A stretch of DNA of 64,000 nt, from contig CANTAL010000143.1 of the NCBI GenBank assembly GCA_947650365.1, positions 372,001 to 436,000 on the forward strand. Reading direction: 5' to 3'. The notes below the pieces were generated by a model. The model made no database searches. It saw only the letters and a list, made by a program, of their open reading frames with translations, and was not told the origin of the DNA. The stretch is from Chamaelirium japonicum (taxonomy: Eukaryota; Streptophyta; Magnoliopsida; Liliales; Melanthiaceae). Shown here piece after piece: positions 1 to 48,582 of this stretch; the stretch's first letter is position 1, and every line of letters starts with the position of its first letter. The position numbers and the translations under genes are program-made.

Positions 1-3000
1 CGAATGAAATAGAATGGATACAAATGAATTAGAATGGATCATACGAATGAATTAGAATAACGATCCATTCTTACTCATTCGTATGATCCATTCTAATTTA
101 TTCGCACGAATGTATCCATTCTAATTCATTCGTACGTCTAATTCATTCGTACGGTCCATTCTAATTCATTCGCACAATCCATTCTATTTCATTCATACGG
201 TCCATTCTTACTCATTCGTATGATCCATTATGGATACATTCGTGCGAATGAATTAGAATGGATCATACGAATGAGTAACATTGGATCGTACGAATGAAAT
301 AGAATGGATTGTGCGAATGAATTAGAATGGATCGTACGAATGAATTAGAATGGATCGTGTGAAAGAATTAGAATGGATTGTATGAATGAATTAGAATAGA
401 TCGTACGAATGAATTAGAATGGATACATTCGCGAATGAATTAGAATGGATCGTACGAATGAATTAGAATGGATCGTACGAATGAATTAGAATGGATCTTA
501 CGAATAAATTAGAATGGATCGTATGAATGAATTAGAATGGATACATTTGTGCGAATAAATTAGAATGGATCGTACGAATGAATTAGAATGGATCGTCATT
601 CATACGATCCATTCTAATTCATTCGCACGAATATATCCATTCTAATTCATTCATACGATCCATTCTACTTCATTCGTACTATCCGTTCTAATTCACTCAT
701 ATGATCCATTCTAATTCATTCATACGATCCATTCTAATTCATTTGCACGAATATATCCATTCTAATTCATTCGTACGATCCATTCTAATTCATTCGTACG
801 ATCCATTCTAATTCCTTCGTATGATCCATTCTAATTCCTTCGTATGATCCATTCTAATTCCTTCTTACGATCCATTCTAATTCATTCGTATCCATTCTAA
901 TTCACTCATACGATCCATTCTAATTCATTCGTACGATCTATTCTAATTCATTCATACAATCCATTCTAATTCTTTCACACGATCCATTCTAATTCATTCG
1001 TAGGATCCATTCTAATTCATTCGTACAATCTATTCTATTTCATTCGTACGATCCATTCTTACTCATTCGTATGATCCATTCTAATTCATTCGGACGAATG
1101 TATCCATTCTAATTTATTCGTACGATCCATTCTAATTCATTCGTACGATCCATTCTAATTCAATCGTACGATCCATTCTAATTCATTCGTCCGATCCATT
1201 CTAATTCATTCGCACGAATGTATCCATTGTAATTCATTCGTACGATCCATTCTAATTCATTCGTAAGATCCATTCTAATTCATTCGTACGATCCAATCTA
1301 ATTCATTCGTACGATCCATTCTAATTCATTCGTATGAATGTATCCATTCTAGTTCATTCGTACGATCCATTCTAATTCATTCGTACGATCCATTCTAATT
1401 CATTCGCACGATCCATTCTAATTCATTCGTCGATCAATTCTAATTCATTCATATGATCCATTCTAATTCATTCGCACGAATGTATCCATTATTAATGAAT
1501 TAGAATGGATCGTGCGAATGAATTCGAATGGATCGCATGATCCATTCGAATAGAATATATCATATGAATGAATTAGAATGGATCGGGCGAATGAATTAGA
1601 ATGGATTGTAGGAATGAATTAGAATGGATTGTATGAATGAATTAGAATGGATCTTATGAATGAATTAGAATGGATCGTGCGAATGAATTAGAATGGATCG
1701 TATGAATGAAATAGAATGGATCGTACGAATGAATTAGAATGGATCATACGAATGAATTAGAATGGATCATGCAAATGAATTAGAATGGATCATACGAATG
1801 AATAAGAATGGATCGGACGAATGAAATAGAATGGATCGTACGAATGAATTAGAATGGATCAAATGAATGAATTAGAATGAATTAGAATGAAATAGAATGG
1901 ATCGTACGAATGAATTAGAATGGATTGTACGAATGAATTAGAATAGATCGTACGAATGAATTAGAATGGATCGTACAAAGGAATTAGAATGGATCGTACG
2001 AATGAATTAGAATGGATATATTCGTGCAAATGAATTACAATAGATCGTATGAATGTATTAGAATGGATCGTATGAGTGAATTAGAATGGATCGTACGAAT
2101 GAATTAGAATGGATTGTATGAATGAATTAGAATGGATACATTCGTGTGAATGAATTAGAATGGATCGTATGAATGAATTAGAATGGATTGACGAAGGAAT
2201 TAGAATGGATCGTACGAATGAATTCGAATGGATATATTCGTGCAAATGAATTAGAATGGATCGTATGAATGAATTAGAATGGATCGTATGAGTGAATTGG
2301 AACGGATAGTACGAATGAAGTAGAATGGATCGTATGAATGAATTAGAATGGATACATTCGTACGAATGAATTGGAATGGATCGTATGAATGAATTAGAAT
2401 AGATTGTGCGAATGAATTAGAATGGATCGTACGAATGAATTAGAATGGATACATTCGTGCGAATAAATTAGAATGGATTGTATGAATGAATTAGAATGGA
2501 TCGTACGAATGAATTAGAATGGATCGTACGAATGAATTAGAATAGATTGCATGAATGAATTAGAATGTATCGTACGAATGAATTAGAATGGATCGTACGA
2601 AGGAATTAGAATGGATCGTACGAATGAATTAGAATGGATCGTACGAATGAATTAGAATGGATCGTACGAAGGAATTAGAATGGATCGTACGAATGAATTA
2701 GAATGGATCGTACGATTGAATTAGAATGGATCATACGAATGAGTAAGAATGGATCGTATGAATGAATTAGATTGGATCGTATGATCCATTCTAATTCATT
2801 AGCATGGATCGTGTTAAGGAATTAGAATGGAATATACGAATGAATTAGAATGGATCGTAGAATGGATCGTACGAATGAATTAGAATGAATTAGAATGGAT
2901 CGTACGAATGAATTAGAATAGATCATAGGAATGAATTAGAATGGATCGTGCAAATGAATTAGAATGGATACATTCGTGCAAATGAATTAGAATGGATCGT

Positions 3001-6000
3001 GCGAATGAATTAGAATGGATCGTACGAATGAATTAGAATGGATATATTTGAACGAATAAATTAGAATGGATCATACGAATGAATTAGAATGGATCGTACG
3101 AATGAATTAGAATGGATAGTGCGAATGAATTAGAATCGATCGTACGAATGAATTAGAATGGATCGTACGAATGAATTAGAATGGATCATACGAATAAGTA
3201 AGAATGGATCGTACGAATGAATTAGAATGGATCGTACGAATGAATTAGAATGGATACATTCGCCCGAATGAATTAGAATAGATCATACGAATGAGTAAGA
3301 ATGGATCGTACGAATGAAATAGAATAGATTGTACGAATGAATTAGAATGGATCCTAGTACGATCCATTCTAATTCGTTCGTACGATCCATTCTAATTCAT
3401 TCATACAATCCATTCTAATTCTTTCACACGATCCATTCTAATTCATTCGTACGATCCATTCTAATTCATTCGTGCAATCCATTCTATTTCATTCATACGA
3501 TCCATTCTTACTCATTCGTACGATCCATTCTAATTCATTCACACGAATGTATCCATTCGAACGAATGAATTAGAATAGATTGTACGAATGAATTAGAATG
3601 GATCGTACGAATGAATTAGAATGGATCGTACGAAGGAATTAGAATGGATCGTACGACTGAATTAGAATGGATCGTACGAATGAATTAGAGTAGATCATAC
3701 GAATGAATTAGAATGGATTGTACGAAGGAATTAGAATGGATCGTACGAATGAATTAGAATGGATCGTGTGAAAGAATTAGAATGGATTGTATGAATGAAT
3801 TAGAATAGATCGTATGAATGAATTAGAATGGATCGTACGAATGAATTAGAATGGATCGTACGAATGAATTAGAATGGATATATTCGTGCGAATGAATTAG
3901 AATGGATACATTCGTGCGAAAAAATTAGAATAGATCGTATGAATGAATTAGAATGGATCCTATGAATGAATTAGAATGGATCGTGCAAATAAATTAGAAT
4001 GGATCGTACGAATGAATTAGAATGGATCGTGCTAATGAATTAGAATTGATCGAACGAATGAATTAGCATGGATCGTGCTAATGAATTAGAATGGAATGTA
4101 CGAATGAATTAGAATGGATCGTGTGAAAGAATTAGAATGGATTGTATGAATGAATTAGAGTGAATTCGTACGATCCATTCGAATTCATTCGCACGATCCA
4201 TTCTAATTCATTCATACGATCCATTCTAATTCATTCGTACGATCCATTCTAATTCATTCGCACAAATGTATCCATTCTAATTTATTTGTAGGATTCATTC
4301 TTACTCATTCGTATGATCCATTCTAATTCATTCGTACGATCCATTCTAATCCATTCGTACGATACATTCTAATTCATTCGCATGAATGTAACCATTCTAA
4401 TTCATTCATTTGATCCATTCTAATTCATTCGTACGATCCATTCTAATTCATTCGTCCGATCCATTCTAATTCATTCGCACGAATGTATCCATTCTAATTC
4501 ATTCATACGATCCATTCTAATTCATTCGTACGGTCCATTCTAATTCATTCGCACAATCCATTCTAATTCATTCGTACGATCCATTCTATTTCATTCTAAT
4601 TCTTTCACACGATCCATTCTAATCCATTCTAATTCTTTCACACGATCCATTCTAACTCATTCGTACGTTCCATTCTAATTCATTAGCACGATCCATGTTA
4701 ATTCATTCGTTCGATCAATTCTAATTCATTAGCACGATCCATTCTAATTCATTCGTACGATCCATTCTAATTCATTCGTACGATCCATTCTAATTCATTC
4801 GCACGATCCATTCTAATTCATTCATAGGATCTATTCTAATTCATTCATACTATCTATTCTAATTCTTTCACACGAATGTATCCATTCTAATTCATTCGCA
4901 CGAATGTATCCATTCTAATTCATTCGTACGATCCATTCTAATTCATTCGTACGATCCATTCTAATTCATTCATACGATCTATTCTAATTCATTCATACAA
5001 TCCATTCTAATTCTTTCACACGATCCATTCTAATTCATTCGTACGATCCATTCTAATTTATTCGCACAATCCAATCTATTTCATTCGTACGATCCATTCT
5101 TACTCATTGGTACGATCCATTCTAATTTATTCGCACGAATGTATCCATTCTAATTCATTCGTACGAATCCATTCTAATTCATTCGTACAATCTATTCTAT
5201 TTCATTCGTACGATCCATTCTTACTCATTCGTATGATCCATTCTAATTCATTCGGACGAATAAATCCATTCTAATTTATTCGTACGATCCATTCTAAATC
5301 ATTCGTACGATCCATTCTAATTCATTCGTACGATCCATTCTAATTCATTCGTCCGATCCATTCTAATTCATTCGCACGAATGTATCCATTCTAATTCATT
5401 CGTACGATCCATTCTAATTCATTCGTACGATCCATTCTAATTCATTCGTATGATCCATTCTAATTCATTCGCACGAATGAATCCATTCTAGTTCATTCGT
5501 ACGATCCATTCTAATTCATTCATACGATACATTCTAATTCATTCGCACGATCCATTCTAATTCATTCGTACGATCCATTCTAATTCATTCATACGATCCA
5601 TTCTAATTCATTCGTACGATCCATTTTAATTCATTCGCACAAATGTATCCATTGTAATTCATTCGTACGATCCATTCTAATTCATTCGCACAATCCATTC
5701 TAATTCATTCGTACGATCCATTCTAATTAATTCGTACGATCCATTTTAATTCATTCATACAATCCATTCTAATTCATTCGCACGAATGTATCCATTCTAA
5801 TTCATTCGTACGATCAGTTCTAATTCATTCACAAAATCTATTCTAGTTTATTCATACGATCCATTCTAATTCATTCACACGAATGTATCCATTCTAATTC
5901 ATTCATACGATCCATTCTAATTCATTCGTACGATCCATTCTAATTCACTCATACGATCCATTCTAATACATTCATACGATCCATTCAAATTCATTTGCAT

Positions 6001-9000
6001 GAATATATCCATTCTAATTCATTCGTACGATCCATTCTAATTCCTTCGTACGATCCATTCTAATTCATTCATATGATCTATTCTATTTCATTCGTACGAT
6101 CCATTCTTACTCATTCGTACGATCCATTCTAATTCATTCGTCCGATCCATTCTAAATCATTCGCACGAATGTATCCATTCTAATTCATTCGTTCGATCAA
6201 TTCTAATTCATTAGCACGATCCATTCTAATTCATTCGTACGATCCATTCTAATTCATTCGCACGATCCATTCTAATTCGTTCATACGATCCATTCTAATT
6301 CATTCATACGATCTATTCTAATTCTTTCCCACGAATGTATCCATTCTAATTCATTCGCACGAATGTATCCATTCTAATTCATTCATACGATCCATTCTAA
6401 TTCATTCGTACGATCCATTCTAATTCATTCGTACGATCCATTCTAATTCATTCGTACGATCCATTCTAATTCATTCGCACGAATGTATCCATTCTAGTTC
6501 ATTCGTACGATCTATTCTAATTCATTCGCATGGATCGTGCATTCGTACGATCCATTCTAATTCATTCGTAAGATCCATTCTAATTCATTCGTACAATCCA
6601 TTCTAATTCATTCGTACGATCCATTCTAATTCATTCGCACGAATGTATCCATTCGAGTTCATTCGTACGATCCATTCTAATTCATTCGTACGATCCATTC
6701 TAATTCATTCATACGATCTATTCTAATTCATTCATACAATCCATTCTAATTCTTTCACACGATCCATTCTAATTCATTCGTACGATCAATTCTAATTCAT
6801 TCGCACAATCCATTCTATTTCATTCGTACGATCCATTCTTACTCATTCGTATGATCCATTCTAATTCATTCACACGAATGTATCCATAATGGATCATACA
6901 AATGAGTAAGAATGGATCGTACGAATGAAATAGAATGGATTGTGTGAATGAATTAGAATGGACCGTACGAATGAATTAGAATGGATACATTCGTGTGAAT
7001 GAATTAGAATAGATCGGACGAATGAATTAGAATGGATCGTACGAATGAATTAGAATGGATCGTACGAATAAATTAGAATGGATACATTCGAATGAATTAG
7101 AATGGATCATACGAATGAGTAAGAATGGATCGTACGAATGAAATAGAATAGATTGTACGAATGAATTAGAATGGATCCTACGAATGAATTAGAATAGATC
7201 GTGTGAAAGAATTAGAATGGATTGTATGAATGAATTAGAATGAATTCGTACGATCCATTCGAATTCATTCGCACGATCCATTCTAATTCATTCATACGAT
7301 CCATTCTAATTCATTCATACAATCCATTCTAATTCTTTCACACGATCCATTCTAATTCATTCGTAGGATCCATTCTAATTCATTCGTACAATCTATTCTA
7401 TTTCATTCGTACGATCCATTCTTACTCATTCGTATGATCCATTCTAATTCATTCGGACGAATGTATCTATTCTAATTTATTCGTACGATCCATTCTAATT
7501 CATTCGTACGATCCATTATAATTCATTCGTACGATCCATTCTAATTCATTCGTCCGATCCATTCTAATTCATTAGCACGAAAGTATCCATTCTATTTCAT
7601 TCGTACGATCCATTCTAATTCATTCGCACGATCCATTCTAATTCATTCGTACGATCCATTCTAATTCATTCATACGATCTATTCTAATTCATTCATACAA
7701 TCCATTCTAATTCTTTCACACGATCCATTCTAATTCATTCGTAGGATCCATTCTAATTCATTCGTACAATCTATTCTATTTCATTCGTACGATCCATTCT
7801 TACTCATTCGTATGATCCATTCTAATTCATTCGGACGAATGTATCTATTCTAATTTATTCGTACGATCCATTCTAATTCATTCGTACGATCCATTATAAT
7901 TCATTCGTACGATCCATTCTAATTCATTCGTCCGATCCATTCTAATTCATTAGCACGAAAGTATCCATTCTATTTCATTCGTACGATCCATTCTAATTCA
8001 TTCGTACAATCCATTCTAATTCATTCGTAAGATCCATTCTAATTCATTCGTACGATCCATTCTAATTCATTCGTACGATCCATTCTAATTCATTCGCACG
8101 AATGTATCCATTCTAGTTCATTCGTACGATCCATTCTAATTCATTCGTACGATCCATTCTAATTCATTCGCACGATCCATTCTAATTCATTCGTACGATC
8201 CATTCTAATTCATTCATACTATCCATTCTAATTCATTCGTACGATCCATTCTAATTCATTCGCACAAATGTATCCATTCTAATTCATTCATACGATCCAT
8301 TCTAATTCATTCGCATGATCCATTCTAATTCATTTGTACGATCCATTCTAATTCATTCATACGATCCATTCTAATTCATTCGCACGATCCATTCTAATTC
8401 ATTTGTACGATCCATTCTAATTCATTCGCACGATCTGTTCTTATTCATTCGCACAATCCATTCTAATTCATTCGCACGAATGTATCCATTCTAATTCATT
8501 CGTACGATCCATTCTAATTCATTCGTACGATCCATTCTAATTCATTCGTATGATCCATTCTAATTAATTCGTATGATCCATTCTAATTCATTCGTACGAT
8601 CCATTCTAGTTCATTCATACAATCCATTCTAATTCATTCGCACGAATGTATCCATTCTAATTAATTCGTACGATCCATTCTAATTCATTCGTATGATCCA
8701 TTCTAATTCATTCGCACAATCCATTCTATTTCATTCGTACGATCCATTCTTACTCATTGGTACGATCCATTCTAATTCATTCGCACGAATGTATCCATTC
8801 TAATTCATTCGTACGAATCCATTCTAATTCATTCATACAATCTATTCTATTTCATTCGTATGATCCATTCTTACTCATTCGTATGATCCATTCTAATTCA
8901 TTCGGACGAATGTATCCATTCTAATTTATTCGTACGATCCATTCAAATTCATTCGTACGATCCATTCTAATTCATTCGTACGATCCATTCTAATTCATTC

Positions 9001-10389: not shown

Positions 10390-13300
10390 TTCTAATTCCT
10401 TTGTACGATCCATTCTAATTCATTCATACAATCCTTTCTAATTCTTTCACACGATCCATTCTAATTCATTCGTACGATCCATTCTAATTCATTCGTACAA
10501 TCCATTCTATTTCATTCGTACGATCCATTCTTACTCATTCGTACGATCCATTCTAATTCATTCACACGAATGTATCCATTCATACGAATGAATTAGAATA
10601 GATTGTATGAATGAATTAGAATGTATCGTACGAATGAATTAGAATGGATCGTACGAAAGAATTAGAATGGATCGTACGAATGAATTAGAATGGATCGTAC
10701 TAATGAATTAGAATAGATCGTACGAATGAATTAGAATGGATCGTACGAAAGAATTAGAATGGATAGTACGAATGAATTAGAATGGATATATTCTTGCAAA
10801 TGAATTTGAATGGATCGTATGAATGTATTAGAATGTCACACGATCCATTCTAATTCATTCGTACGATCCATTCTAATTCATTCGTACGATCCATTCTAAT
10901 TCATTCGTATGATCCATTCTAATTAATTCGTATGATCCATTCTAATTCATTCGTACGATGCATTCTAATTAATTCATACAATCCATTCTAATTCATTCGC
11001 ACAAATGTATCCATTCTAATTAATTCGTACGATCCATTCTAATTCATTCGTATGATCCATTCTAATTCATTCGCACAATCCATTCTATTTCATTCGTACG
11101 ATCCATTCTTACTCATTGGTACGATCCATTCTAATTTATTCGCACGAATGTATCCATTCTAATTGTTTCGTACGAATCCATTCTAATTCATTCGTACAAT
11201 CTATTCTATTTCATTCGTACGATCCATTCTTACTCATTCGTAAGATCCATTCTAATTCATTCGGACGAATGTATCCATTCTAATTTATTCGTACGATCCA
11301 TTCTAATTCATTCGTACGATCCATTCTAATTCGTTCGTACGATCCATTCTAATTCATTCGTCTGATCCATTCTAATTCATTCGCACGAATGTATCCATTC
11401 TAATTCATTCGTACGATCCATCCTAATTCATTCGTAAGATCCATTCTAATTCATTCGTACGATACATTCTAATTCATTCGTACGATCCATTCTAATTCAT
11501 TCACACGAATGAATTCATTCTAGTTCATTCGTACGATCTATTCTAATTCATTCGCATGGATCGTGCATTTGTACAATCCATTCTAATTCATTCATAAGAT
11601 CCATTCTAATTCATTCGTACGATCCATTCTAATTCATTCGTACGATCCATTCTAATTAATTCGCACGAATGTATCCATTCTAGTTCATTCGTACGATCCA
11701 TTCTAATTCATTCGTAGGATCCATTCTAATTCATTCATACGATCTATTCTAATTCATTCATACAATCCATTCTAATACTTTCACACGATCCATTCTAATT
11801 CATTCGTACGATTCATTCGTAGGATCCATTCTAATTCATTCGTACGATCCATTCTAATTCATTCGCACGAATGTATCCATTCTAGTTCATTCGTACGATC
11901 CATTCTAATTCATTCGTACGATCCATTCTAATTCATTCGCACGATCCATTCTAATTCATTCGCACGATCCATTCATACGATCCATTCTAATTCATTCGTA
12001 CGATCCATTCTAATTCATTCGTACGATCCATTCTAATTCATTCTCACGAATGTATCCATTCTAGTTCATTCGTACGATCCATTCTAATTCATTCGTTTGA
12101 TCCATTCTAATTCATTCGCACGATCCATTCTAATTCATTCGTACGATCCATTCTAATTCCTTCGTACGATCCATTCTAATTCATTCGTACGATCCATATT
12201 AATTCTATCGTACAATCTATTCTAATTCATTCGTACGAATGGATACATTCGTGTGAATGAATTAGAATGGATCGTACGAATGAGTAAGAATGGATCGTAC
12301 GAATGAAATAGAATGGATTGAACGAATGAATTAGAATGGATCGTACGAATGAATTAGAATGGATCGTGTGAAAGAATTAGAATGGATTGTATGAATGAAT
12401 TAAAATGGATCGTACGAAGGAATTAGAATGGATCGTACGAATGAATTAGAATTGATCGTACGAATGAATTAGAATGGATCGTACGAATGAATTAGAATGG
12501 ATCGTGTGAAAGAATTAGAATGGATCGTACGAATGAATTAGAATGGATCGTGCGAATGAATTAGAATGGATCGTACGAATGAATTAGAATGGATCGTGCT
12601 AATTAATTAGAATTGATCGAACAAATGAATTAGCATGGATCGTGCATTCGTACGATCCATTCTAATTCATTCGTATGATCCATTCTAATTCATTCGTACG
12701 ATCCATTCTATCTCATTCGTACGATCCATTCTAATTCATTCGCACGAATGTATCCATTCTAGTTCATTCGTACGATCCATTCTAATTCATTCGTACGATC
12801 CATTCTAATTCATTCATTCGATCTATTCTAATTCATTCATACAATCCAATCTAATTCTTTCGTACGATCCATTCTAATTCATTCGCACAATCCATTCTAT
12901 TTCATTCGTACGATCCATTCTTACTCATTCGTATGATCCATTCTAATTCATTCGCACGAATGAATCCATAATGGATCATACGAATGAGTAAGAATGGATC
13001 GTACGAATGAAATAGAATGGATTGTGCGAATGAATTAGAATGGACCGTACGAATGAATTAGAATGGATACATTCGTGCGAATGAATTAGAATGGATCGGA
13101 TGAATGAATTAGAATGGATCGTACGAATGAATTAGAATGGATCGTACGAATGAATTAGAATGGATCGTACGAATAAATTAGAATGGATACATTCGTCCGA
13201 ATGAATTAGAATGGATCATACGAATGAGTAAGAATGGATCGTACAAATGAAATAGAATAGATTGTACGAATGAATTAGAATGGATCCTACGAATGAATTA

Positions 13301-15945
13301 GAATAGATCATGTGAAAGAATTAGAAAGGATTGTATGAATGAATTAGAATGAATTCGTACGATCTATTCGAATTCATTCGCACAATCCATTCTAATTCAT
13401 TCATACGATCCATTCTAATTCATTCATACAATCCGTTCTAATTCTTTCACACGATCCATTCTAATTCATTCGTAGGATCCATTCTAATTCATTCGTACAA
13501 TCTATTCTATTTCATTCGTACGATCCATTCTTACTCATTCGTATGATCCATTCTAATTCATTCGGACAAATGTATCCATTCTAATTTATTTGTACGATCC
13601 ATTCTAATTCATTCGTACGATCCATTCTAATTCATTCGTACGATCCATTCTAATTCATTCGTCCGATCCATTCTAATTCATTCGCACGAATGTATCCATT
13701 CTAATTCATTCGTAGGATCCATTCTAATTCATTCATACGATCCATTCTAATTCATTCGTAAGATCCATTCTAACTCATTCATACAATCCATTCTAATTCA
13801 TTCGTACGATCCATTCTAATTCATTCGTAAGATCCATTCTAACTCATTCATACAATCCATTCTAATTCATTCGTACGATCCATTCTAATTCATTCGCATG
13901 ATCCATTCTAATTCATTTGTACGATCCATTCTAATTCTTTCACACGATCCATTCTAATTCATTCGTAGGATCCATTCTAATTCATTTGTACAATCTATTC
14001 TAATTCATTCGTATGATCCGTTCTAATTCATTCGTACGATCGTACGAATGAATTAGAATGGATCGTACGGAATGAATTAGAAAGGATTGTATGAATGAAT
14101 TAGAATGGATACATTCGTGCGAATGAATTAGAATGGATCATACGAATGAGTAAGAATGGATCGTACGAATGAAATAGAATGGATTGTACGAATGAATTAG
14201 AATGGATCGTACAAATGAATTAGAATGGATCGTACGAATGAATTAGAATGGATCATACGAATGAATTAGAATGGATCGTGTGAAAGAATTAGAATGGATT
14301 GTATGAATGAATTAGAATAGATCGTATGAATGAATTAGAATGGATCGTACGAATGAATTAGAATGGATCGTACGAATGAACTAGAATGGATACATTCGTG
14401 CGAATGAATTAGAATAGATCGTACGAAGGAATTAGAATGGATCGTACGAATGAATTAGAATGGATCGTACGAATGAATTAGAATAGATCGTACGAATGAA
14501 TTAGAATGGATCGTACGAAGGAATTAGAATGGATCGTACGAATGAATTAGAATGGATATATTCGTGCAAATGAATTAGAATGGATTGTATGAATGTATTA
14601 GAATGGATCGTACGAATGAATTAGAATGGATTCGTACGAATGAATTAGAATGGATACATTCGTGCGAATAAATTAGAATGGATCATACGAATGAATTAGA
14701 ATGGATCGTACGAATTAATTAGAATGGATATATTCGTGCAAATGAATAAGAATGGATCGTATGAATGTATTAGAATGGATCGTATGAGTGAATTAGATAG
14801 GATCGTACGAATGAATTAGAATGGATCGTATGAATGAATTAGAATGGATCGTACGAATGAATTAGAATGGATACATTCGTGCGAATGAATTAGAATGGAT
14901 ACATTCGTGCGAAAGAATTAGAATAGATCGTATGAATGAATTAGAATGGATCCTATGAATGAATTAGAATGGATCGTGCGAATGAATTAGAATGGATCGT
15001 ACGAATGAATTAGAATAGATCGTACGAATGAATTAGAATGGATCGTACGAAGGAATTAGAATGGATCGTACGAATGAATTAGAATGGATATATTCGTGCA
15101 AATGAATTAGAATGGATCGTATGAATGTATTAGAATGGATCGTGCGAATGAATTAGAATGGATCGTACGAATGAATTAGAATGGATCGTACGAATGAATT
15201 AGAATGGATCTTACGAATGAATTAGAATGGATCGTACGAATGAATTAGAATGGATCCTACGAATGAATTAGAATGAATACATTCGTGCGAATGAATTAGA
15301 ATGGATCGGACGAATGAATTAGAATGGATCGTACGAATGAATTAGAATGGATCGTACGAATGAATTAGAATGGATCGTACGAATAAATTAGAATGGATAC
15401 ATTCGTCCGAATGAATTAGAATGGATCATACGAATGAGTAAGAATGGATCGTACGAATGAAATAGAATAGATTGTACGAATGAATTAGAATGGATCCTAC
15501 GAATGAATTAGAATGGATCGTGTGAAAGAATTAGAATGGATTGAATGAATGAATTAGAATGGATCGTATGAATGAATTCGAATGGATCGTACGAATTCAT
15601 TCTAATTAATTCATACAATCCATTCTAATTCTTTCACACGATCTATTCTAATTCATTCGTAGGATCCATTCTAATTCATTCGTACAATCTATTCTATTTC
15701 ATTCGTACGATCCATTCTTACTCATTCGTATGATCCATTCTAATTCATTCGGACGAATGTATCCATTCTAATTTATTCGTACGATCCATTCTAATTCATT
15801 CGTACGATCCATTCTAATTCATTCGTACGATCCATTATAATTCATTCGTCCGATCCATTCTAATTCATTCGCACGAATGTATCCATTCTAATTCATTCGT
15901 ACGGTCCATTCTAATTCATTCGCACAATCCATTCTAATTCCTTTG
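10390..15945. repeat. Higher-order satellite segment, copy 1 (about 5.55 kb)
   Basis: This satellite segment is followed directly by a second copy. It carries the same series of inverted blocks and the same rare monomer variants. Markers include CCTTTG at 10398 (15950 in copy 2), AGAATGTCACACG near 10832 (16374), the GCATGGATCGTGCATTTG junction near 11554 (17096), GTACGGAATG near 14065 (19418), and GATTGAATGAATG near 15539 (20911). The offset falls from about 5,550 to 5,330 bp because copy 1 has about 210 bp more F-oriented monomers near 12.0-12.2 kb. This was read by eye; exact ends need a dot plot. Confidence 0.8.
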
Positions 15946-31091: not shown

Positions 31092-31094
31092 GTT

Positions 31095-31436: not shown

Positions 31437-31501
31437 ATCCACCCCCCTTAGGGCTACACGTCCTCGTGTAGGGTTAGACCCCCCCATAGCGAGGAGAACC
31501 G

Positions 31502-31513: not shown

Positions 31514-31516
31514 TTT

Positions 31517-34800: not shown

Positions 34801-35540
34801 CTTTCACACGATCTATTCTAATTCATTCGTACGATCCATTCTAATTCATTCGTACAATCCATTCTATTTCATTTGTACGATCCATTCTTACTCATTCGTA
34901 TGATCCATTCTAATTCATTCGTACGATCCATTCTAATTCATTTGTACGATCCATTCTAATTCAATCGTACAATCCATTCTATTTCATTCGTACGATCCAT
35001 TCTTACTCATTCGTATGATCTATTCTAATTCATTCGCATGAATGTATCCATTCTAATTCATTCATACAATCCATTCTAATTCATTCCGTACGATCCATTC
35101 TAATTCATTCGTACGATCGTACGAATGAATTAGAATGGATCGTACGAATGAATTAGAATAGATTGTGAGAATGAATTAGAATGGATCGTACGAATGAATT
35201 AGAATGGATCGTATGAATGAATTAGAATGGATCATACGAATGAGTAAGAATGGATCGTACGAATGAATTAGAATGGATCGTACGAATGAATTAGAATGGA
35301 TCGTACGAATAAATTAGAATGGATACATTCGTCCGAATGAATTAGAATGGATCATACGAATGAGTAAGAATGGATCGTACGAATGAAATAGAATAGATCG
35401 TACGAATGAATTAGAATGGAATATACGAATGAATTAGAATAGATCGTACGAATGAATTAGAATGGATCGTATGAATGAATTAGAATGGATCGTACGAATG
35501 AATTAGAATGGATCGTGCGAATGAATTCGAATGGATCATA

Positions 35541-38500
35541 CAATCCATTCTAATTCATTAATACAATCCATTTTAATTCATTCGCACGAATGTATCCATT
35601 CTAATCCATTCGTACAATCCATTCTAATCCATTCGTACGATACATTCTAATTCATTCGCACAAATGTATCCATTCTAATTCATTCGTACGATCCATTCTA
35701 ATTCATTCGTACGATCCATTCTAATTTATTCGTACGATCCATTCTAATTCATTCATATGATCCATTCTAATTAACTCGTATGATCCATTCTAATTCATTC
35801 GTACGATCCATTCTAATTCATTCGTACGATCCATTCTAATTCATTCGTACGATCCATTCTAATTCTTTCGTATAATCCATTCTAATTAATTCGTATGATC
35901 CATTCTAATTCATTCGTACGATCCATTCTAATTCATTCGTGCGATCCATTCTAATTCATTCGCACAATCCATTCTATTTCATTCGTACAATCCATTCTTA
36001 CTCATTGGTATGATCTATTCTAATTCATTCGCACGAATGTATCCATTCTAATTCATTCGTACGAATCCATTCTAATTCATTCGTACAATCCATTCTATTT
36101 CATTCGTACGATCCATTCTTACTCATTCGTATGATCCATTTTAATTCATTCGCACGAATGTATCAATTCTAAATCATTCATATAATCCATTCTAATTCAT
36201 TCGTACGATCCATTCTAAATCATTCGTACAATCCATTCTATTTAATTCGTACGATCAATTCTAATTCATTAGCACGATCCATTCTAATTCATTCGTACGA
36301 TCCATTCAAATTCATTCGCACGATCCATTCTAATTCATTCGTACAATCCATTCTATTTCATTCGTACGATCCATTCTTACTCATTCGTATGATCCATTCT
36401 AATTCTTTCGCACAAATGTATCCATTCTAATCCATTCGTACGATCCATTCTAATTCATTCGCATGAATGTAACCATTCTAATTCATTCATTTGATCCATT
36501 CTAATTCATTCGTACGATCCATTCTAATTCATTCGTCCAATCAATTCTAATTCATTCGCACGAATGTATCCATTCTAAACCATTCATACGATCCATTCTA
36601 ATTTATTCGTACGATCCATTCTAATTCATTCGTAAGATCCATTCTAATTCATTCGTACGATCCATTCTAATTCATTCGTACGATCCACTCTAATTTATTC
36701 GAAAGATCCATTCTAATTCATTCGTACGATCCATTCTAATTCATTCGTGGGATCCATTCTAATTCATTCGCACGAATGTATCCATTCTAGTTCATTCGTA
36801 CGATCCATTCTAATTCATTCATACGATCCATTCTAATTCATTCGCACGATCCATTCTAATTCATTCATACGATCCATTCTAATTCATTCATACGATCCAT
36901 TCTAATTCATTCACACAAATGTATACATTCTAATTCATTCGTACGATCCATTCTAATTCATTCGCACGATCCATTCTAATTCATTCATACGATCCATTCT
37001 AATTCATTCACACGAATGTATCCATTCTAATTCATTCATACGATCCATTCTAATTCATTCGTACGATCCATTCTAATTCACTCATACGATCCATTCTAAT
37101 ACATTCATACGATCCATTCTAATTCATTTGCACGAATATATCCATTCTAATTCATTCTACGATCCATTCTAATTCCTTCGTACGATCCATTCTAATTCAT
37201 TCGTACGATCTATTCTTTTTCATTCGTATGATCCATTCTTACTCATTCGTACGATCCATTCTAATTCATTCGTCCGATCCATTCTATTTCATTCGCACGA
37301 ATGTATCAAATTTAATTCATTCGTACGATCCATTCTAATTCATTCGCACGATCCATTCTAATTCATTCGTACGATCCATTCTAATTCTTTCACACGATCC
37401 ATTCTAATTCATTCGTACGATCCATTCTTATTCATTCGTACGATCCATTCTAATTCATTCGCACAAATGTATCCATTCTAATTCATTCGTACGATCCATT
37501 CTAATTCATTCGCACGATCCATTCTAATTCATTCGTATGATCCATTGTAATTCTTTCACACGATCCATTCTAATTCATTCGTACGATCCATTCTAATTCA
37601 TTCGCACGATCCATTCTAATTCATTCATAGGATCCATTCTAATTCATTCATACGATCTATTCTAATTCTTTCGCACGAATGTATCCATTCTAATTCATTC
37701 GCACGAATGTATCCATTCTAATTCATTCGTACGATCCATTCTAATTTATTCGTACGATCCATTCTAATTCATTCATACGATCTATTCTAATTCATTCATA
37801 AAATCCATTCTAATTCTTTCACACGATCCATTCTAATTCATTCGTACGATCCATTCTAATTTATTCGCACGAATGTATCCATTCTAATTCATTCGTACGA
37901 TCCATTCTAATTCATTCGCACAATCTATTCTAATTCATTCATACGATCCATTCTAATTCATTCGCACGAATGTATCCATTCTAATTCATTCATACGATCC
38001 ATTCTACTTCATTCGTACTATCCGTTCTAATTCACTCATACGATCCATTCTAATTCATTCATACGATCCATTCTAATTCATTTGCACAAAGGAATCCATT
38101 CTAATTCATTCGTACGATCCATTCGAATTCATTCGCACGATCCATTCTAATTCATTCGTACGATCCATTCTAATTCATTCGTACGATCCATTCTAATTCA
38201 TTCGCACGATCCATTCTAATTCATTCGTACAATCTATTCTATTTCATTCGTACGATCCATTCTTACTCATTCGTATGATCCATTCTAATTCATTCGGACG
38301 AATGTATCCATTCTAATTTATTCGTACAATCCATTCTACTTCATTCGTACGATCCATTCTAATTCATTCGCTCGAATGTATCCATTCTAATCCATTCGTA
38401 CGATCCATTCTAATCCATTCGTATGATCCATTCTAATTCATTCGCATGAATGTAACCATTCTAATTCATTCATTTGATCCATTCTAATTCATTCGTACGA

Positions 38501-41500
38501 TCCATTCTAATTCATTAGCACGATCCATGTTAATTCATTCGTTCGATCAATTCTAATTCATTAGCATGACCTATTCTAATTCATTCGTACGATCCATTCT
38601 AATTCATTCGCACGATCCATTCTAATTCATTCATAGGATCCATTCTAATTCATTCATACGATCTATTCTAATTCTTTCGCACGAATGTATCCATTCTAAT
38701 TCATTCGCACGAATGTATCCATTCTAATTCATTCGTACGATCCATTCTAATTCATTCGCACGATCCATTCTAATTCATTCGTACGATCCATTCTAATTCA
38801 TTCGCACGAATGTATCCATTCTAATTCATTCGTACGATCCATTCTAATTCATTCATAGGATCCATTCTAATTCATTCATACAATCCATTCTAATTCATTC
38901 GCACGAATGTATCCATTCTAATTCATTCGTGCGATCCATTCTAATTCATTCGTCCAATCAATTCTAATTCATTCGCACGAATGTATCCATTCTAAACCAT
39001 TCATACGATCTATTCTAATTTATTCGTACAATCCATTCTAATTCATTCGTAAGATCCATTCTAATTCATTCGAACGATCCATTCTAATTCATTCGTACAA
39101 TCCACTCTAATTCATTCGAAAGATCCATTCTAATTCATTCGTACGATCCATTCTAATTCATTCGTACGATCAATTCTAATTCATTCGCACGAATGTATCC
39201 ATTCTAGTTCATTCGTATGATCCGTTCTAATTCATTCGTACGATCCATTCTAATTCATTCGCACGATCCATTCTAATTCATTCGTACGATCCATTCTAAT
39301 TCATTCATACGATCCATTCTAATTTATTCATATGATCCATTCTAATTCATTCACACAAATGTATCCATTCTAATTCATTCGTACGATCCATTCTAATTCA
39401 TTCGCACGATCTATTCTAATTCATTCATACGATCCATTCTAATTCATTCACACGAATGTATCCATTCTAATTCATTCATACGATCCATTCTAATTCATTC
39501 GTACGATCCATTCTAATTCACTCATACGATCCATTCTAATACATTCATACGATCCATTCTAATTCATTTGCACAAATATATCCATTCTAATTCATTCGTA
39601 CGTTCTATTCTAATTCCTTCGTACGATCCATTCTAATTCATTCGTACGATCTATTCTATTTCATTCGTACGATCCATTCTTACTCATTCGTACGATCCAT
39701 TCTAATTCATTCGTCCGATCCATTCTAATTCATTCGCACGAATGTATCCAATCTAATTCATTCGTACGATCCATTCTAATTCATTCGCACGATCCATTCT
39801 AATTCATTCGTACGATCAATTCTAATTCTTTCACACGATCCATTCTAATTCATTCGTACGATCCATTCTAATTCATTCGTATGATCCATTCTAATTCATT
39901 CGTACAAATGTATCCATTCTAATTCATTCGTACGATCCATTCTATTTCATTCGCACGATCCATTCTAATTCATTCGTACGATCCATTCTAATTCTTTGAC
40001 ACGATCCATTCTAATTCATTCGTACGATCCATTCTAATTCATTCGCACGATCCATTCTAATTCATTCATAGGATCCATTCTAATTCATTCATACGATCTA
40101 TTCTAATTCTTTCGCACGAATGTATCCATTCTAATTCATTCGCACGAATGTATCTATTCTAATTCATTCGTACGATCCATTCTAATTCATTCGAACGATC
40201 CATTCTAATTCATTCGTACGATCCATTCTAATTCATTCATACGATCTATTCTAATTCATTCATAAAGTCCATTCTAATTCTTTCACACGATCCATTCTAA
40301 TTCATTCGTACGATCCATTCTAATTTATTCGAACGAATGTATCCATTCTAATTCATTCGTACGATCCATTATAATTCATTCGCACAATCTATTCTAATTC
40401 ATTCATACGATCCATTCTAATTCATTCGCACGAATGTATCCATTCTAATTCATTCATACGATCCATTCTACTTCATTCGTACTATCCGTTCTAATTCACT
40501 CATACGATCTATTCTAATTCATTCATACGATCCATTCTAATTCATTTGCACAAGGATATCTATTCTAATTCATTCGTACGATCCATTCGAATTCATTCGC
40601 ACGATCCATTCTAATTCATTCGTACGATCCATTCTAATTCATTCGTACGATCCATTCTAATTCATTCGCACGATCCATTCTAATTCATACGTACAATCTA
40701 TTCTATTTCATTCGTACGATCCATTCTTACTCATTCGTATGATCCATTCTAATTCATTCGGACGAATGTATCTATTCTAATTTATTCGTACAATCCATTC
40801 TAATTCATTCGTACGATCCATTCTAATTCATTCGCTCGAATGTATCCATTCTAATCCATTCGTACGATCCATTCTAATCCATTCGTACGATCCATTCTAA
40901 TTCATTCGCATGAATGTAACCATTCTAATTCATTCATTTGATCCATTCTAATTCATTCGTACGATCCATTCTAATTCATTAGCACGATCCAAGCTAATTC
41001 ATTCATTCGATCAATTCTAATTCATTAGCACGATCCCTTCTAATTCATTCGTACGATCCATTCTAATTCATTTGCAAGATCCATTCTAATTCATTCATAG
41101 GATCCATTCTAATTCATTCATACGATCTATTCTAATTCTTTCGCACGAATGTATCCATTCTAATTCATTCGCACGAATGTATCCATTCTAATTCATTCGT
41201 ACGATCCATTCTAATTCATTCGCACGATCCATTCTAATTTATTCGTACGATCCATTCTAATTCATTCGCACGAATGTATCCATTCTAATTCATTCGTACG
41301 ATCCATTCTAATTCATTCATAGGATCCATTCTAATTCATTCATACAATCCATTCTAATTCATTCGCTCGAATGTATCCATTCTAATTCATTCGTACGATC
41401 TATTCTAATTCATTCGTCCAATCAATTCTAATTTATTCGCACGAATGTATCCATTCTAAACCATTCATACGATCCATTCTAATTTATTCGTACGATCCAT

Positions 41501-44500
41501 TCTAATTCATTCGTAAGATCCATTCTAATTCATTCGTACGATCCATTCTAATTCATTCGTACGATCCACTCTAATTCATTCGAAAGATCCATTCTAATTC
41601 ATTCGTACGATCCATTCTAATTCATTCGTACGATCCATTCTAATTCATTCGCACGAATGTACCCATTCTAGTTCATTCGTACGATCCATTCTAATTCATT
41701 CGTACGATCCATTCTAATTCATTCGTACGATCCATTCTAATTCATTCGTACGATCCATTCTAATTCATTAATACGATCCATTCTAATTCATTCATACGAT
41801 CCATTCTAATTCATTCACACAAATGTATCCATTCTAGTTCATTCGTACGATCCATTCTAATTCATTCGCACGATCCATTCTAATTCATTCATACGATCCA
41901 TTCTAATTCATTCACACGAATGTATCCATTCTAATTCATTGATACAATCCATTCTAATTCATTCGTACGATCCATTCTAATTCACTCATACGATCCATTC
42001 TAATATATTCATACGATCCATTCTAATTCATTTGCACGAATATATCCATTCTAATTCATTCGTACGATCCATTCTAATTCCTTCGTACGATCCATTCTAA
42101 TTCATTCGTACGATCTATTCTATTTCATTCGTACGATCCATTCTTACTCATTCGTACGATCCATTCTAATTTATTAGTCCAATCCATTCTAATTCATTCG
42201 CACGAATGTATCCAATCTAATTCATTCGTACGATCCATTCTAATTCATTCGCACGATCCATTCTAATTCATTCGTACGATCCATTCTAATTCTTTCACAC
42301 GATCCATTCTAATTCATTCGTACGATCCATTCTAATTCATTCGTACGATCCATTCTAATTCATTCGCACAAATGTATCCATTCTAATTCATTCGTACGAT
42401 CCATTCTAATTCAATCGCGCGATCCATTCTAATTCATTCGTACGATCCATTCTAATTCTTTCACACGATCCATTCTAATTCATTCGTACGATCCATTCTA
42501 ATTCATTCGCACGATCCATTCTAATTCATTCATAGGATCCATTCTAATTCATTCATACGATCTATTCTAATTCTTTCGCACGAATGTATCCATTCTAATT
42601 CATTCGCACGAATGTATCCATTCTAATTCATTCGTACGATCCATTCTAATTCATTCGTACGATCCATTCTAATTCATTCATACGATCTATTCTAATTCAT
42701 TCATAAAATCCATTCTAATTCTTTCACACGATCCATTCTAATTCATTTATACGATCCATTCTAATTTATTTGCACGAATGTATCCATTCTAATTCATTCG
42801 TACGATCCATTCTAATTCATTCGCACAATCTATTCTAATTCATTCATATGATCCATTCTAATTCATTCGCACGAATGTATCCATTCTAATTCATTCATAC
42901 GATCCATTCTACTTCATTCGTACTATCCGTTCTAATTCACTCATACGATCCATTCTAATTCATTCATATGATCCATTCTAATTTATTTGCACAAAGATAT
43001 CCATTCTAATTCATTCATACGATCCATTCGAATTCATTTGCACGATCCATTCTAATTCATTCGTACGATCCATTCTAATTCATTCGTACGATCCATTCTA
43101 ATTCATTCGCATGATCCATTCTAATTCATTCGTACAATCTATTCTATTTCATTCGTACGATCCATTCTTACTCATTCGTATGATCCATTCTAATTCATTC
43201 AGACGAATGTATCCATTCTAATTTATTCGTACAATCCATTCTAATTCATTCGTACGATCCATTCTAATTCATTCGCTCAAATGTATCCATTCTAATCCAT
43301 TCGTACGATCCATTCTAATCCATTCGTACGATCCATTCTAATTCATTCGCATGAATGTAACCATACTAATTCATTCATTTGATCCATTCTAATTCATTCG
43401 TACGATCCATTCTAATTCATTAGCACGATCCATGCTAATTCATTCGTTCGATCAATTCTAATTCATTAGCACGATCCATTCTAATTCATTCGTACGATCC
43501 ATTCTAATTCATTCGCACGATCCATTCTAATTCGTTCATAGGATCCATTCTAATTCATTCATATGATCTATTCTAATTCTTTCGCACGAATGTATCCATT
43601 CTAATTCATTCGCACGAATGTATCCATTCTAATTCATTCGTACGATCCATTCTAATTCATTCGCACGATCCATTCTAATTCATTCGTACGATCCATTCTA
43701 ATTCATTCGCACGAATGTATCCATTCTAATTCATTCGTACGATCCATTCTAATTCATTCATAGGATCCATTCTAATTCATTCATACAATCCATTCTAATT
43801 CATTCGCACGAATGTATCCATTCTAATTCATTCGTACGATCCATTCTAATTCATTCGTCCAACCAATTCTAATTCATTCGCACGAATGTATCCATTCTAA
43901 ACCATTCATACGATCTATTCTAATTTATTCGTACGATCCATTCTAATTCATTCGTAAGATCCATTCTAATTCATTCGTACGATCCATTCTAATTCATTCG
44001 TACGATCCACTCTAATTAATTCGAAAGATCCATTCTAATTCATTCGTACGATCCATTCTAATTCATTCGTACGATCCATTCTAATTCATTCGCACGAATG
44101 TATCCATTCTAGTTCATTCGCACGATCCATTCTAATTCATTCGTACGATCCATTCTAATTCATTCGCACGATCCATTCTAATTCATTCGTACGATCCATT
44201 CTAAACCATTCATACGATCCATTCTAATTTATTCGTACGATCCATTCTAATTCATTCGTAAGATCCATTCTAATTCATTCGTACGATCCATTCTAATTCA
44301 TTCGTACGATCCACTCTAATTAATTCGAAAGATCCATTCTAATTCATTCGTACGATCCATTCTAATTCATTCGTACGATCCATTCTAATTCATTCGCACG
44401 AATGTATCCATTCTAGTTCATTCGCACGATCCATTCTAATTCATTCGTACGATCCATTCTAATTCATTCGCACGATCCATTCTAATTCATTCATACGATC

Positions 44501-46790
44501 CATTCTAATTCATTCGTACGATCCATTCTAGTTCATTCGCATGATCCATTCTAATTCATTCATACGATCTATTCTAATTCATTCACACGAATGTATCCAT
44601 TCTAATTCATTCATACGATCCATTCTAATTCATTCGTACGATCCATTCTAATTCACTCATACGATCCATTCTAATACATTCATACGATCCATTCTAATTC
44701 ATTTGCACGAATATATCCATTCTAATTCATTCGTACGATCCATTCTAATTCCTTCGTACGATCCATTCTAATTCATTCGTACGATCTATTCTATTTCATT
44801 CGTACGATCCATTCTTACTCATTCGTACGATCCATTCTAATTAATTCGTCCGATCCATTCTAATTCATTCGCACGAATGTATCCAATCTAATTCATTCGT
44901 ACGATCCATTCTAATTCATTCGCACGATCCATTCTAATTCATTCGTACGATCCATTCTAATTCTTTCACAGGATCCATTCTAATTCATTCGTACGATCCA
45001 TTCTAATTCATTCGTACGATCCATTCTAATTCATTCGCACAAATGTATCCATTCTTATTCATTCGTACGATCCATTCTAATTCATTCGCACGATCCATTC
45101 TAATTCATTCGTACGATCCATTCTAATTCTTTCACACGATCCATTCTAATTCATTCGTACGATCCATTCTAATTCATTCACACGATCCATTCTAATTCAT
45201 TCATAGGATCCATTCTAATTCATTCATACGATCTATTCTAATTCTTTCGCACGAATGTATCCATTCTAATTCATTCGCACGAATGTATCCATTCTAATTC
45301 ATTCGTACGATCCATTCTAATTCATTCGTACGATCCATTCTAATTCATTCATACGATCCATTCTAATTCATTCATACGATCTATTCTAATTCATTCATAA
45401 AATCCATTCTAATTCTTTCACACGATCCATTCTAATTCATTCGTACGATCCATTCTAATTTATTCGCACGAATGTATCCATTCTAATTCATTCGTACGAT
45501 CCATTCTAATTCATTCGCACAATCTATTCTAATTCATTCATACGATCCATTCTAATTCATTCGCACGAATGTATCCATTCTAATTCATTCATACGATCCA
45601 TTCTACTTCATTCGTACTATCCGTTCTAATTCACTCATACAATCCATTCTAATTCATTCATACGATCCATTCTAATTCATTTGCACAAAGGTATCCATTC
45701 TAATTCATTCGTACGATCCATTCGAATTCATTCGCACGATCCATTCTAATTCATTCGTACGATCCATTCTAATTCATTCGCACGATCCATTCTAATTCAT
45801 TCGTACAATCTATTCTATTTCATTCGTACGATCCATTCTTACTCCTTCGTATGATCCATTCTAATTCATTCGGACGAATGTATCCATTCTAATTAATTCG
45901 TACAATCCATTCTAATTCATTCGTACGATCCATTCTAATTCATTCGCTCGAATGTATCCATTCTAATCCATTCGTACGATCCTTTCTAATCCATTCGTAC
46001 GATCCATTCTAATTCATTCGCATGAATGTAACCATTCTAATTCATTCATTTGATCCATTCTAATTCATTCGTTCGATCAATTCTAATTCATTACCACGAT
46101 CCATTCTAATTCATTCGTACGATCCATTCTAATTCATTCGCACGATCCATTCTAATTCATTCATAGAATCCATTCTAATTCATTCATACGATCTATTCTA
46201 ATTCTTTCGCACGAATGTATCCATTCTAATTCATTCGCACGAATGTATCCATTCTAATTCATTCGTATGATCAGTTCTAATTCATTCACAAAATCTATTC
46301 TAATTCATTCATACGATCCATTCTAATTCATTCACACGAATGTATCCATTTTAATTCATTCATACGATCCATTCTAATTCATTCGTACGATCCATTCTAA
46401 TTCCTTCGTACGATCCATTCTAATTCATTCGTACGATCCATTCTAATTCCTTCGTACGATCCATTCTAATTCATTCGTACGATCCATTCTAATTTATTCA
46501 TACAATCTATTCTAATTCTTTCACACGATCCATTCTAATTCATTCGTACGATCCATTCTAATTCATTAGCACGATCCATGCTAATTCATTCGTTCGATCA
46601 ATTCTAATTCATTACCACGATCCATTCTAATTCATTCGTACGATCCATTCTAATTCATTCGCACGATCCGTTCTAATTCATTCATAGGATCCATTCTAAT
46701 TCATTCATACGATCTATTCTAATTCTTTCGCACGAATGTATCCATTCTAATTCATTCGCACGAATGTATCCATTCTGATTCATTCGTATG
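35541..46790 (+). repeat. Longest single-orientation satellite block with 2.4-2.7 kb higher-order repeats
   Basis: The rare variant GCATGAATGTAACCATTC occurs at 36461, 38444, 40908, 43349 and 46020, with spacings of 1983, 2464, 2441 and 2671 bp. The linked variant ACTATCCGTTC occurs at 38017, 40481, 42922 and 45616, with spacings of 2464, 2441 and 2694 bp. The two independent markers agree, so this is a true higher-order repeat of about 2.45 kb with roughly four copies and a shorter first interval. The last unit is longer partly because of a local 304-bp duplication (CTAAACCATTC at about 43898 and 44202). Confidence 0.85.
43900..44510 (+). repeat. Local 304-bp tandem duplication inside the last higher-order unit
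   Basis: ACCATTCATACG appears at 43901 and again at 44205, followed by the same order of monomer variants (GTAAGATCC, CACTCTAATTAATTCGAAAG, the 28-bp variant, then CTAGTTCATTCGCACG). This accounts for most of the extra length of this unit. Confidence 0.75.
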
Positions 46791-48582
46791 AATGAATTAG
46801 AATGGATCGTACGAATGAATTAGAATAGATCGTACGAATGAATTAGAATGGATCGTACGAAGGAATTAGAATGGATCGTACGAATGAATTAGAATGGATA
46901 TATTCGTGCAAATGAATTAGAATGGATCGTATGAATGTATTAGAATGGATCATATTAGTGAATTAGAATGGATCGTGCGAATGAATTAGAATGGATTGTA
47001 TGAATGAATTAGAATGGATCGTACGAATGAATTAGAATGGATCAGACGAATTAATTAGAATGGATCGTACGAATGAATTAGAATGGATCGTACGAATGAA
47101 TTAGAATGGATCGTGCTAATGAATTAGAATAGATCGTACGAAAGAATTAGAATGGATCGTACGAAGGAATTAGAATGGATCGTTCGAATGAATTAGAATG
47201 GATATATTCGTGCAAATGAATTAGAATGGATCGTATGAATGTATTAGAATGGATCGTATGAGTGAATTAAAATGGATCGTGTGAAAGAATTAGAATGGAT
47301 CGTATGAATGAATTAGAATGGATCGTGCGAATGAATTCGAATGGATCGTACGAATTCATTCTAATTCATTCATACAATCCATTCTAATTCTTTCACACCA
47401 TCTATTCTGATCCATTCTACGATCCATTCTAATTCATTCGCACAATCCATTCTATTCCATTCGTACGATCCATTCTTACTCATTCGTATGATCCATTCTA
47501 ATTCATTCGCACGAATGTATCCATAATGGATCATACGAATGAGTAAGAATGGATCGTACGAATGAATTAGAATGGATCGTACGAATGAATTATAATGAAT
47601 TAGAATGAATCGTACGAATGAATTAGAATAGATCATAGGAATGAATTAGAATGGATCGTGCAAATGAATTAGAATGGATACATTCGTGCGAATGAATTAG
47701 AATGGATCGTGCGAATGAATTAGAATGGATCGTACGAATGAATTAGAATGGATCTTACGAATCAATTAGAATGGATCGTACGAAGGAATTAGAATGGATC
47801 GTACGAATGAATTAGAATGGATATATTCGTGCAAATGAATTAGAATCGATCATATGAATGTATTAGAATGGATCGTATGAGTGAATTAAAATGGATCGTG
47901 TGAAAGAATGGATCGTACGAATGAATTAGAATGGATCGTACGAATGAATTAGAATGAATTAGAATGAATCGTACGAATGAATTAGAATAGATCATAGGAA
48001 TGAATTAGAATGGATCGTGCAAATGAATTAGAATGGATACATTCGTGCGAATGAATTAGAGTGGATCGTGCGAATGAATTAGAATGGATCGTACGAATGA
48101 ATTAGAATGGATCTTACGAATGAACTAGAATGGATCGTACGAATGAATTAGAATGGATCGTACGAATGAATTAGAATGGATACATTCGTGCGAATGAATT
48201 AGAATGGATCGGACGAATGAATTAGAATGGATCGTACGAATGAATTAGAATGGATCGTACGAATGAATTTGAATGGATCGTTCGAATAAATTATAATAGA
48301 TACATTCGTCCGAATGAATTAGAATGGATCATATGAATGAGTAAGAATGGATCGTACGAATGAAATAGAATAGATTGTACGAATGAATTAGAATGGATCC
48401 TACGAATGAATTAGAATGGATCGTGTGAAAGAATTAGAATGGATTGTATGAATGAATTAGAATGGATCGTATGAATGAATTAGAATGGATCGTATGAATG
48501 AATTAGAATGGATCTTACGAATGAATTAGAATGGATCGTACGAATGAATTAGAATGGATCGTACGAATGAATTAGAATGGAT

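Follow-up and report, generated by a model that had tools for sequence, protein, structure and literature searches.

The window, that is, the whole 64,000-bp stretch of DNA that was analysed (C155:372001-436000, C155 being our label for its contig), contains a short tandem satellite in mixed orientation, which is interrupted by a small retroelement and adjoined by a large one. The genome that was searched together with it comprises 1.52 Gb in 3253 contigs. The array and its insertions are laid out as follows:

1-30,675, no strand assigned: Chio1/Chio2 array in mixed orientation, first part, up to the TRIM insertion (from strand blocks and 23/28-bp spacings)
30,676-31,845, minus strand: Cassandra-like TRIM insertion, 1.17 kb (from LTR ends, target duplication GTAAG and Rfam 5S rRNA)
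31,846-48,583, no strand assigned: Chio1/Chio2 array in mixed orientation, second part, up to the LTR element (from strand blocks and insertion contexts)
35,543-46,785, minus strand: longest one-way block, 11.2 kb (from strand blocks)
48,584-64,000, minus strand: left part of an LTR retrotransposon, the whole of which spans 23.2 kb (C155:420584-443782; target duplication GGATA)

With an 18-base core of the 23-bp monomer and at most four mismatches, 1973 monomers were matched in the window, 733 on the plus and 1240 on the minus strand. They form 51 alternating strand blocks between positions 2 and 48,582, which gives 50 switches, or 48 if a block of one single monomer (2784-2801) is disregarded. 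The latter count is the one given by a sequence-only reading of this DNA, which had described a 23-bp plant satellite with real strand flips; the strand switches are confirmed, and the alternating blocks bear out the inverted-repeat geometry that it had derived from them. The blocks have a median length of 552 bp and a maximum of 11,243 bp, and neighbouring monomers of the same strand are spaced by 23 bp in 1624 cases and by 28 bp in 251. The array had also been placed at 1-48,582, and these coordinates hold; the 1.17-kb TRIM nevertheless interrupts it, and satellite resumes past the LTR element, so that there is no end at 48.58 kb. As far as we followed it, the satellite on this contig begins at about 318,790 and reaches about 471,130, at which point a further LTR element follows.

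The array is almost certainly a piece of a Chionographis japonica centromere unit built of the Chio1/Chio2 satellite. This species is a holocentric monocot (2n = 24) with many centromere units per chromosome and a HiFi assembly, in which Chio1 (23 bp) and Chio2 (28 bp) differ by 5 bp and one base and the satellite possesses an 8-bp dyad, dyad symmetries and predicted hairpins (PMC10264360). The window likewise holds a 28-bp variant of the 23-bp monomer; 540 exact Chio1-like and 92 exact Chio2-like spacers were counted, with 5 bp and one substitution between the two kinds. The nine bases TTCGTACGA, to which a 2025 paper (PMC12722358) refers and which hold the 8-bp dyad, occur 729 times on both strands together. 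In monomer lengths, dyad and mixed-strand arrays we see no difference in kind from Chio1/Chio2 as reported in 2023 (PMC10264360). As published for this satellite, the work of such an array would be to carry CENH3 nucleosomes for the kinetochore; CENH3 ChIP enriched the Chio repeat 11.1-fold (PMC10264360), so that the sequence-only reading had been well advised to propose CENH3 as a target of testing. Exact 14-mers of the satellite number 7,641,454 in the genome (3,790,912 on one strand versus 3,850,542 on the other), compared with 5603 in the 212,039 satellite bases of a 264-kb sample drawn from three contigs (164 kb of C155, 40 kb of C129 and 60 kb of C261). Extrapolation from these counts gives about 289 Mb of satellite or about 19% of the assembly, and Chio is thus the major repeat of the genome, for which 16.11% of the genome, and about 17% interacting with CENH3, have been published (PMC10264360).

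The mixed orientation and the flips themselves are already in print and hence not new: Chio arrays were found to mix forward and reverse orientation in 2023 (PMC10264360), and their "frequently alternating orientation" was contrasted in 2025 with the consistently oriented Chama arrays (PMC12722358). Chama, the centromeric satellite of Chamaelirium luteum from the sister genus, shares the nine bases with Chio, but has a 60-bp monomer, long consistently oriented arrays and one centromere per chromosome (PMC12722358). A literature text search with the letters of the monomer gave no match, nor did a search of viral contigs with a 41-mer of the satellite. To our knowledge, human satellites 2 and 3 share no common descent with Chio. 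They resemble it in being CATTC-rich, and 1,738 reads matching on two strands have been set aside as possible inversion breakpoints (PMC4022460).

Both retroelements are passengers. Cassandra TRIMs are defined by LTRs that bear 5S rRNA, a target duplication and the lack of a coding part. The insertion at 30,676-31,845 resembles them in its 5S-bearing LTRs in tandem: it consists of three tandem LTR copies with spacers of about 80 bp and without a coding part, and Rfam 5S rRNA matches two of the three LTRs on the minus strand. It adjoins one flip and lies outside the satellite proper. The minus orientation of the 23.2-kb element was judged from a sequence beside its right LTR that resembles a primer-binding site. 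Its two LTRs are identical at 752 of 761 positions (98.8%). The satellite keeps the same strand on both sides of this element, and the array therefore predates the insertion.

What we add to the published picture is an analysis at the level of the junctions, in which flips are grouped into recurring classes. The passages of PMC10264360 that we consulted do not describe such recurrence, and the word 'junction' is absent from its main text. A flip was counted where less than 120 bp separate the two block ends, and classes were formed at an edit distance of at most 5 on either strand, the latter being a loose limit. Of the 259 flips in the sample, from which the flip beside the Cassandra-like TRIM is absent because of the 120-bp rule, all fall into 28 classes, nine of them singletons. 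The nine largest classes (78, 35, 29, 20, 16, 15, 13, 9 and 8 copies) account for 223 flips, a sharing that is inflated insofar as the stretches of C129 and C261 were picked as best matches to window positions 1-1000. Five null sets, each made of 259 joins in which real arms were paired at random, yielded 91-111 classes, 59-83 singletons and only 103-142 joins in the top nine. Within the window, 44 of the 49 switches analysed by class belong to the nine commonest classes. Examples, with copy numbers that depend on the loose class limits, and a larger module built of such flips are:

4,152-4,187, plus to minus: class A flip, the most frequent class (sample 78/259, window 16/49)
6,858-6,913, minus to plus: class C flip (sample 29/259, window 7/49)
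10,550-10,599, minus to plus: class D flip (sample 35/259, window 8/49)
14,020-14,059, minus to plus: class E flip, whose core GTACGATCGTAC is a perfect palindrome (sample 16/259, window 4/49)
12,640-20,990, no strand assigned: tandem duplication of a multi-flip module with a period of about 5.35 kb (class order D-M-D-F-C-A-E-A twice)

An eighth window copy of class C, at 30,637-30,664 beside the TRIM element, lies outside the count. Seven of the nine commonest classes occur both ways (H reversed once only); of the other two, class E is identical to its reverse complement, and class I, with eight copies, is found in one orientation only. The exact 33-mer of class A occurs 6730 times forward and 6777 times in reverse (13,507 in total), and a reversed control not at all. 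From the sample about 49,000 exact copies were predicted, so that class A is 3.6 times rarer genome-wide and is over-represented in the sample. Class 14 was considered as a rare marker and set aside; its exact core has a single occurrence genome-wide, which lies on C155.

In most comparisons, likeness is greater between arms of one class than between arms from different classes, with the exception of the left arm of class H at 200 bp (same-class 115.7 versus a null of 126.0). Compared with the plain monomer, 11 of the 28 classes overlap by 0-4 bp at the join and one by 8 bp; in the remaining 16, 2-34 bp are left unexplained, and some of these look by eye like Chio2 variants. Such joins would fit end joining or template switching, without proving either.

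Another origin, recurrent fold-back, in which a nascent strand snaps back on TCGTACGA, an 8-bp palindrome, or on a different short palindrome within the monomer and then copies itself, would leave mirrored arms. Class E comes closest to this among the common classes, with a core that is a perfect palindrome centred on GATC and mirrored arms that nearly match the same-class likeness (151.4 versus about 160 over 200 bp); classes 12 and 25, of two copies each, are the only ones with mirror scores above the 95th percentile of the null. However, over 256 junctions the mean mirror scores of these common classes all lie inside the null range; class E, although it ranks first among classes of five or more copies, reaches only the 76th percentile, and in classes A, C, G, H, I, K, N and O the same-class likeness is well above the mirror likeness at 100 bp. 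At just two of the 256 junctions do the arms agree to 98% or more along 200 bp or more. Class C had led us to expect fold-back as the general source of flips, an expectation supported for the common classes neither over these junctions nor by a class-calibrated version, and we consider recurrent fold-back quite unlikely.

Since the arms are so rarely mirror images, simple fold-back is disfavoured together with artefacts from palindromic reads. That the flips as such are assembly errors, arising from palindromic reads or inverted misjoins, might be suspected because large satellite arrays are hard to assemble and C155 is unplaced on the chromosome scaffolds. Palindromic reads should give arms of nearly 100% identity, yet the mean arm identity is 87.5%, which together with the two near-identical junctions makes them an unlikely general cause. 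Moreover, the same junctions recur on many contigs, the assembly is a HiFi assembly (PMC10264360), and mixed orientation has been reported independently (PMC10264360, PMC12722358), so that we give an artefact hardly any credence.

An element with inverted ends might also produce flips. Foldback elements carry long inverted repeats, and one of them, Tetris, is said to be able to seed satellites, which would speak for a foldback-type DNA transposon with terminal inverted repeats made of the monomer. But all 49 window junctions run from satellite into satellite without a spacer gene, and at none of them was a two-arm foldback unit with target duplication and spacer found. As Chio is furthermore dissimilar to annotated transposable elements according to the 2023 authors (PMC10264360), such a transposon appears extremely improbable.

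The flips recur far beyond the window, as parts of longer segments. Positions 1-1000, flips included, align in one piece over at least 904 bases at 86-100% identity in all 40 scored candidates (out of 3810 first-look candidates, the window itself being among the 40), which is more than chance or a single misassembly would give. Among these scored candidates are copies on C1 (18.4, 49.6, 51.3, 66.5-66.6 and 134.4 Mb), C2 (75.3 and 75.9 Mb), C7 (43.2 Mb) and many unplaced contigs. The class order C-F-D-A-E is common to C155, C261 and C129, and on C129 it is also present in reverse. The two copies of the tandem module in the window align directly over about 5.0 kb at 92.4-92.6% (joined coordinates 71,009-75,977 and 76,385-81,349, from which 60,000 is subtracted for window positions). 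The nearest relatives of window positions 1-1000 diverge by 4-5%, and because the LTRs of the 23.2-kb element are so much more alike, the shared flips are probably older than its insertion, provided that rates are alike.

Direct and inverted copies are about equally common, as exchange without regard to orientation would give: within the sample, 10,049 direct and 9697 inverted alignments reach 600 bp or more, with pairs counted from both sides. To these we added twelve further sites. Four were chosen as known satellite (the starts of C8, C9 and C12, and C1:1.85 Mb); the other eight were picked arbitrarily on unplaced contigs, and six of them proved to be satellite. Matches of at least 700 bp between the ten satellite sites and the sample were direct in 440 and inverted in 481 cases (223 and 221 for the six arbitrary sites). 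Nine of the ten share sequence with the sample and one has no match at all. Both strands are present at each of the ten sites, which hold 22 flips, 19 of them inside the loose class limits (nine of 11 at the arbitrary sites). Twenty ten-kb stretches all contain satellite, 19 of them on both strands, the remaining one being a minus block beside a retroelement.

We had also considered the arrays to be well mixed, as shared segments of at least 1 kb were similarly dense within and between contigs; this was rejected, C129 and C261 having been picked for likeness, and a weaker claim of mixing is kept because sites not so picked share less, and unevenly. Likewise, of 900 shared-segment ends (C129 and C261 only), 348 fall no more than 40 bp from a flip, versus 95.9 for shifted positions, but we dropped this clustering as evidence, because alignments stop at unshared flips and pass same-strand rearrangements unseen.

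Genome-wide, flips flanked by exact 14-mers total 98,577 (46,658 plus to minus and 51,919 minus to plus), a density of 0.0129 per 14-mer compared with 0.0118 in the sample (66/5603). Among the first 100 places on C1 listed for each direction are flip sequences outside our class assignment. Scaling the 259 flips of the sample by 14-mers, we extrapolate about 350,000 flips in the genome, one per approximately 0.8 kb of satellite.

How such arrays arose can be sketched as follows. A limited set of joins may have formed long ago where satellite segments of opposite orientation met. Blocks from one to several kb long, whose recurrence was described above, would then have been copied with their flips within and between centromere units, probably by homology-driven exchange that pairs a segment with a copy in either orientation. 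Pairing in either orientation would be open to every unit because each already carries both strands; direct and inverted copies would thereby accumulate about equally and the array would stay mixed. The flips in the window are thus probably not 48 separate events. We regard this mechanism, old joins amplified by orientation-blind exchange between units, as somewhat favoured, and the account as a whole, a Chio1/Chio2 centromere array together with such amplification, as our best explanation and a fairly probable one.

On the other hand, the longest shared segments favour direct orientation, which is a counterpoint to orientation-blind exchange: within the sample, 140 direct alignments face 83 inverted ones at 2 kb or more, and 13 face none at 5 kb or more. 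If segments were turned round in place, through double breaks or recombination between inverted copies and without long-range copying, this would also mix orientations. Such inversion explains the balance of the two strands in the 14-mer counts given above and the short or absent shared sequence at many joins, and inversions are among the routes of spread named by the 2023 authors (PMC10264360). Inversion alone, however, does not account for the recurrence of multi-flip modules across contigs and chromosomes, and we think it unlikely, though the least so of the alternatives. The number of founder joins concerns the sample; class mixes differ between arrays genome-wide, because class A is rarer there and some flip sequences on C1 are unclassified. 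That all of the roughly 350,000 switches descend from few founder joins, with flip-bearing modules moving between units either way, is a tentative proposal, which we hold to be conceivable but somewhat doubtful.

Whether the flips serve a purpose is a separate matter. RNAs of 400 nt centred on flips fold in silico with a mean MFE of -235.8 (n=20) versus -78.6 in mid-block controls (n=20), and their longest perfect stem averages 42.2 versus 10.1 (20 versus 20 RNAs). The suggestion of the sequence-only reading that RNA across flips could fold into long stems thus stands as a predicted possibility. Its further idea, that such double-stranded RNA feeds small-RNA silencing, agrees with these stable stems and, among published results, with a weak positive correlation of CENH3 with H3K9me2 genome-wide (r = 0.33; PMC10264360). 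Against it, however, are the low CHH methylation of the Chio arrays, which is as low as in genes, the low transcription, CENH3 chromatin being negatively correlated with the transcriptome (r = -0.50), and H3K9me2 that mainly flanks the centromere units, which are themselves partly depleted of it (PMC10264360). We consider this idea very improbable. Slightly less so, but still decidedly unlikely, is that selection keeps the flips because hairpins or dyads aid CENH3 loading. The published dyad symmetries and predicted hairpins (PMC10264360) and the about equal flip density genome-wide would be consistent with it, but the CENH3-bearing Chama arrays of the sister genus are consistently oriented, so that flips are not needed there (PMC12722358), and the window itself includes an 11.2-kb one-way block. 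Given the one-way arrays of Chamaelirium, the flips are probably a by-product of array spread.

How a satellite that builds a holocentromere has spread is a question discussed by the 2023 authors, who named interlocus gene conversion between chromocentre-clustered units, inversions, or re-insertion of eccDNA as routes (PMC10264360). Our data are compatible with gene conversion, inversion and eccDNA re-insertion, without choosing among them. If the classes are shared by descent, they would provide a marker with which these three routes could be tested against each other. If, beyond that, the switches of the whole genome descend from few founder joins and flip-bearing modules move between units either way, the junctions would be a heritable barcode that traces the spread of centromere units along holocentric chromosomes. 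In that case, orientation-blind exchange between units clustered in chromocentres would have built the holocentromere of Chionographis japonica, in contrast to the one-way arrays of its sister genus.

The satellite array on C155, the unplaced contig that contains the window, harbours the following insertions and internal repeats:

Window 30676-31845: Cassandra-like TRIM insertion that has its LTR in three tandem copies and bears the target duplication GTAAG
Window 49108-49313: 43-bp repeat, 4.8 copies, within the LTR of the LTR retrotransposon that also carries the next repeat
Window 49481-51078: 118-bp tandem repeat, 13.5 copies with 95% matches, within this LTR retrotransposon
C155:444581-455214 (position 8581 of stretch L013 to 9214 of L014): retroelement insertion with a mutually inverted LTR pair

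The LTR copies of the Cassandra-like element are 94.7-97.3% identical to each other, and two of the three possess matches to 5S rRNA on the minus strand. In the 118-bp tandem repeat, GATCGGTCAA-type palindromes are abundant. The inverted LTRs of the retroelement at C155:444581-455214 agree at 738 of 749 positions; its structure is unusual in that, despite this inversion, an identical five bases (ATATC) are present at both flanks.

At its left edge, the array adjoins a run of G and a region of degenerate repeats rich in GAGCTC (C155:317800-318790; 5800-6790 of stretch L017). Three of the 12 chromosome scaffolds (C8, C9 and C12) start within satellite, as judged from the first 300 bases of each, and scaffold C3 starts with telomere repeats. 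Across the assembly, RuBisCO_large yielded 131 matches; on many small contigs the rbcL match falls within an open reading frame some 485 codons long, and the unplaced part therefore probably contains many redundant plastid contigs.

Among the first 100 places listed for the exact class A junction, the commonest strand-flip type in our satellite sample, all those in C1:2289676-2826009 are on the plus strand and for some of them a spacing of about 169.8 kb recurs, whereas the stretch at 1.37-2.17 Mb of the same scaffold is mixed in strand. Judging from these places, C1:2289676-2826009 looks like a large tandem duplication.
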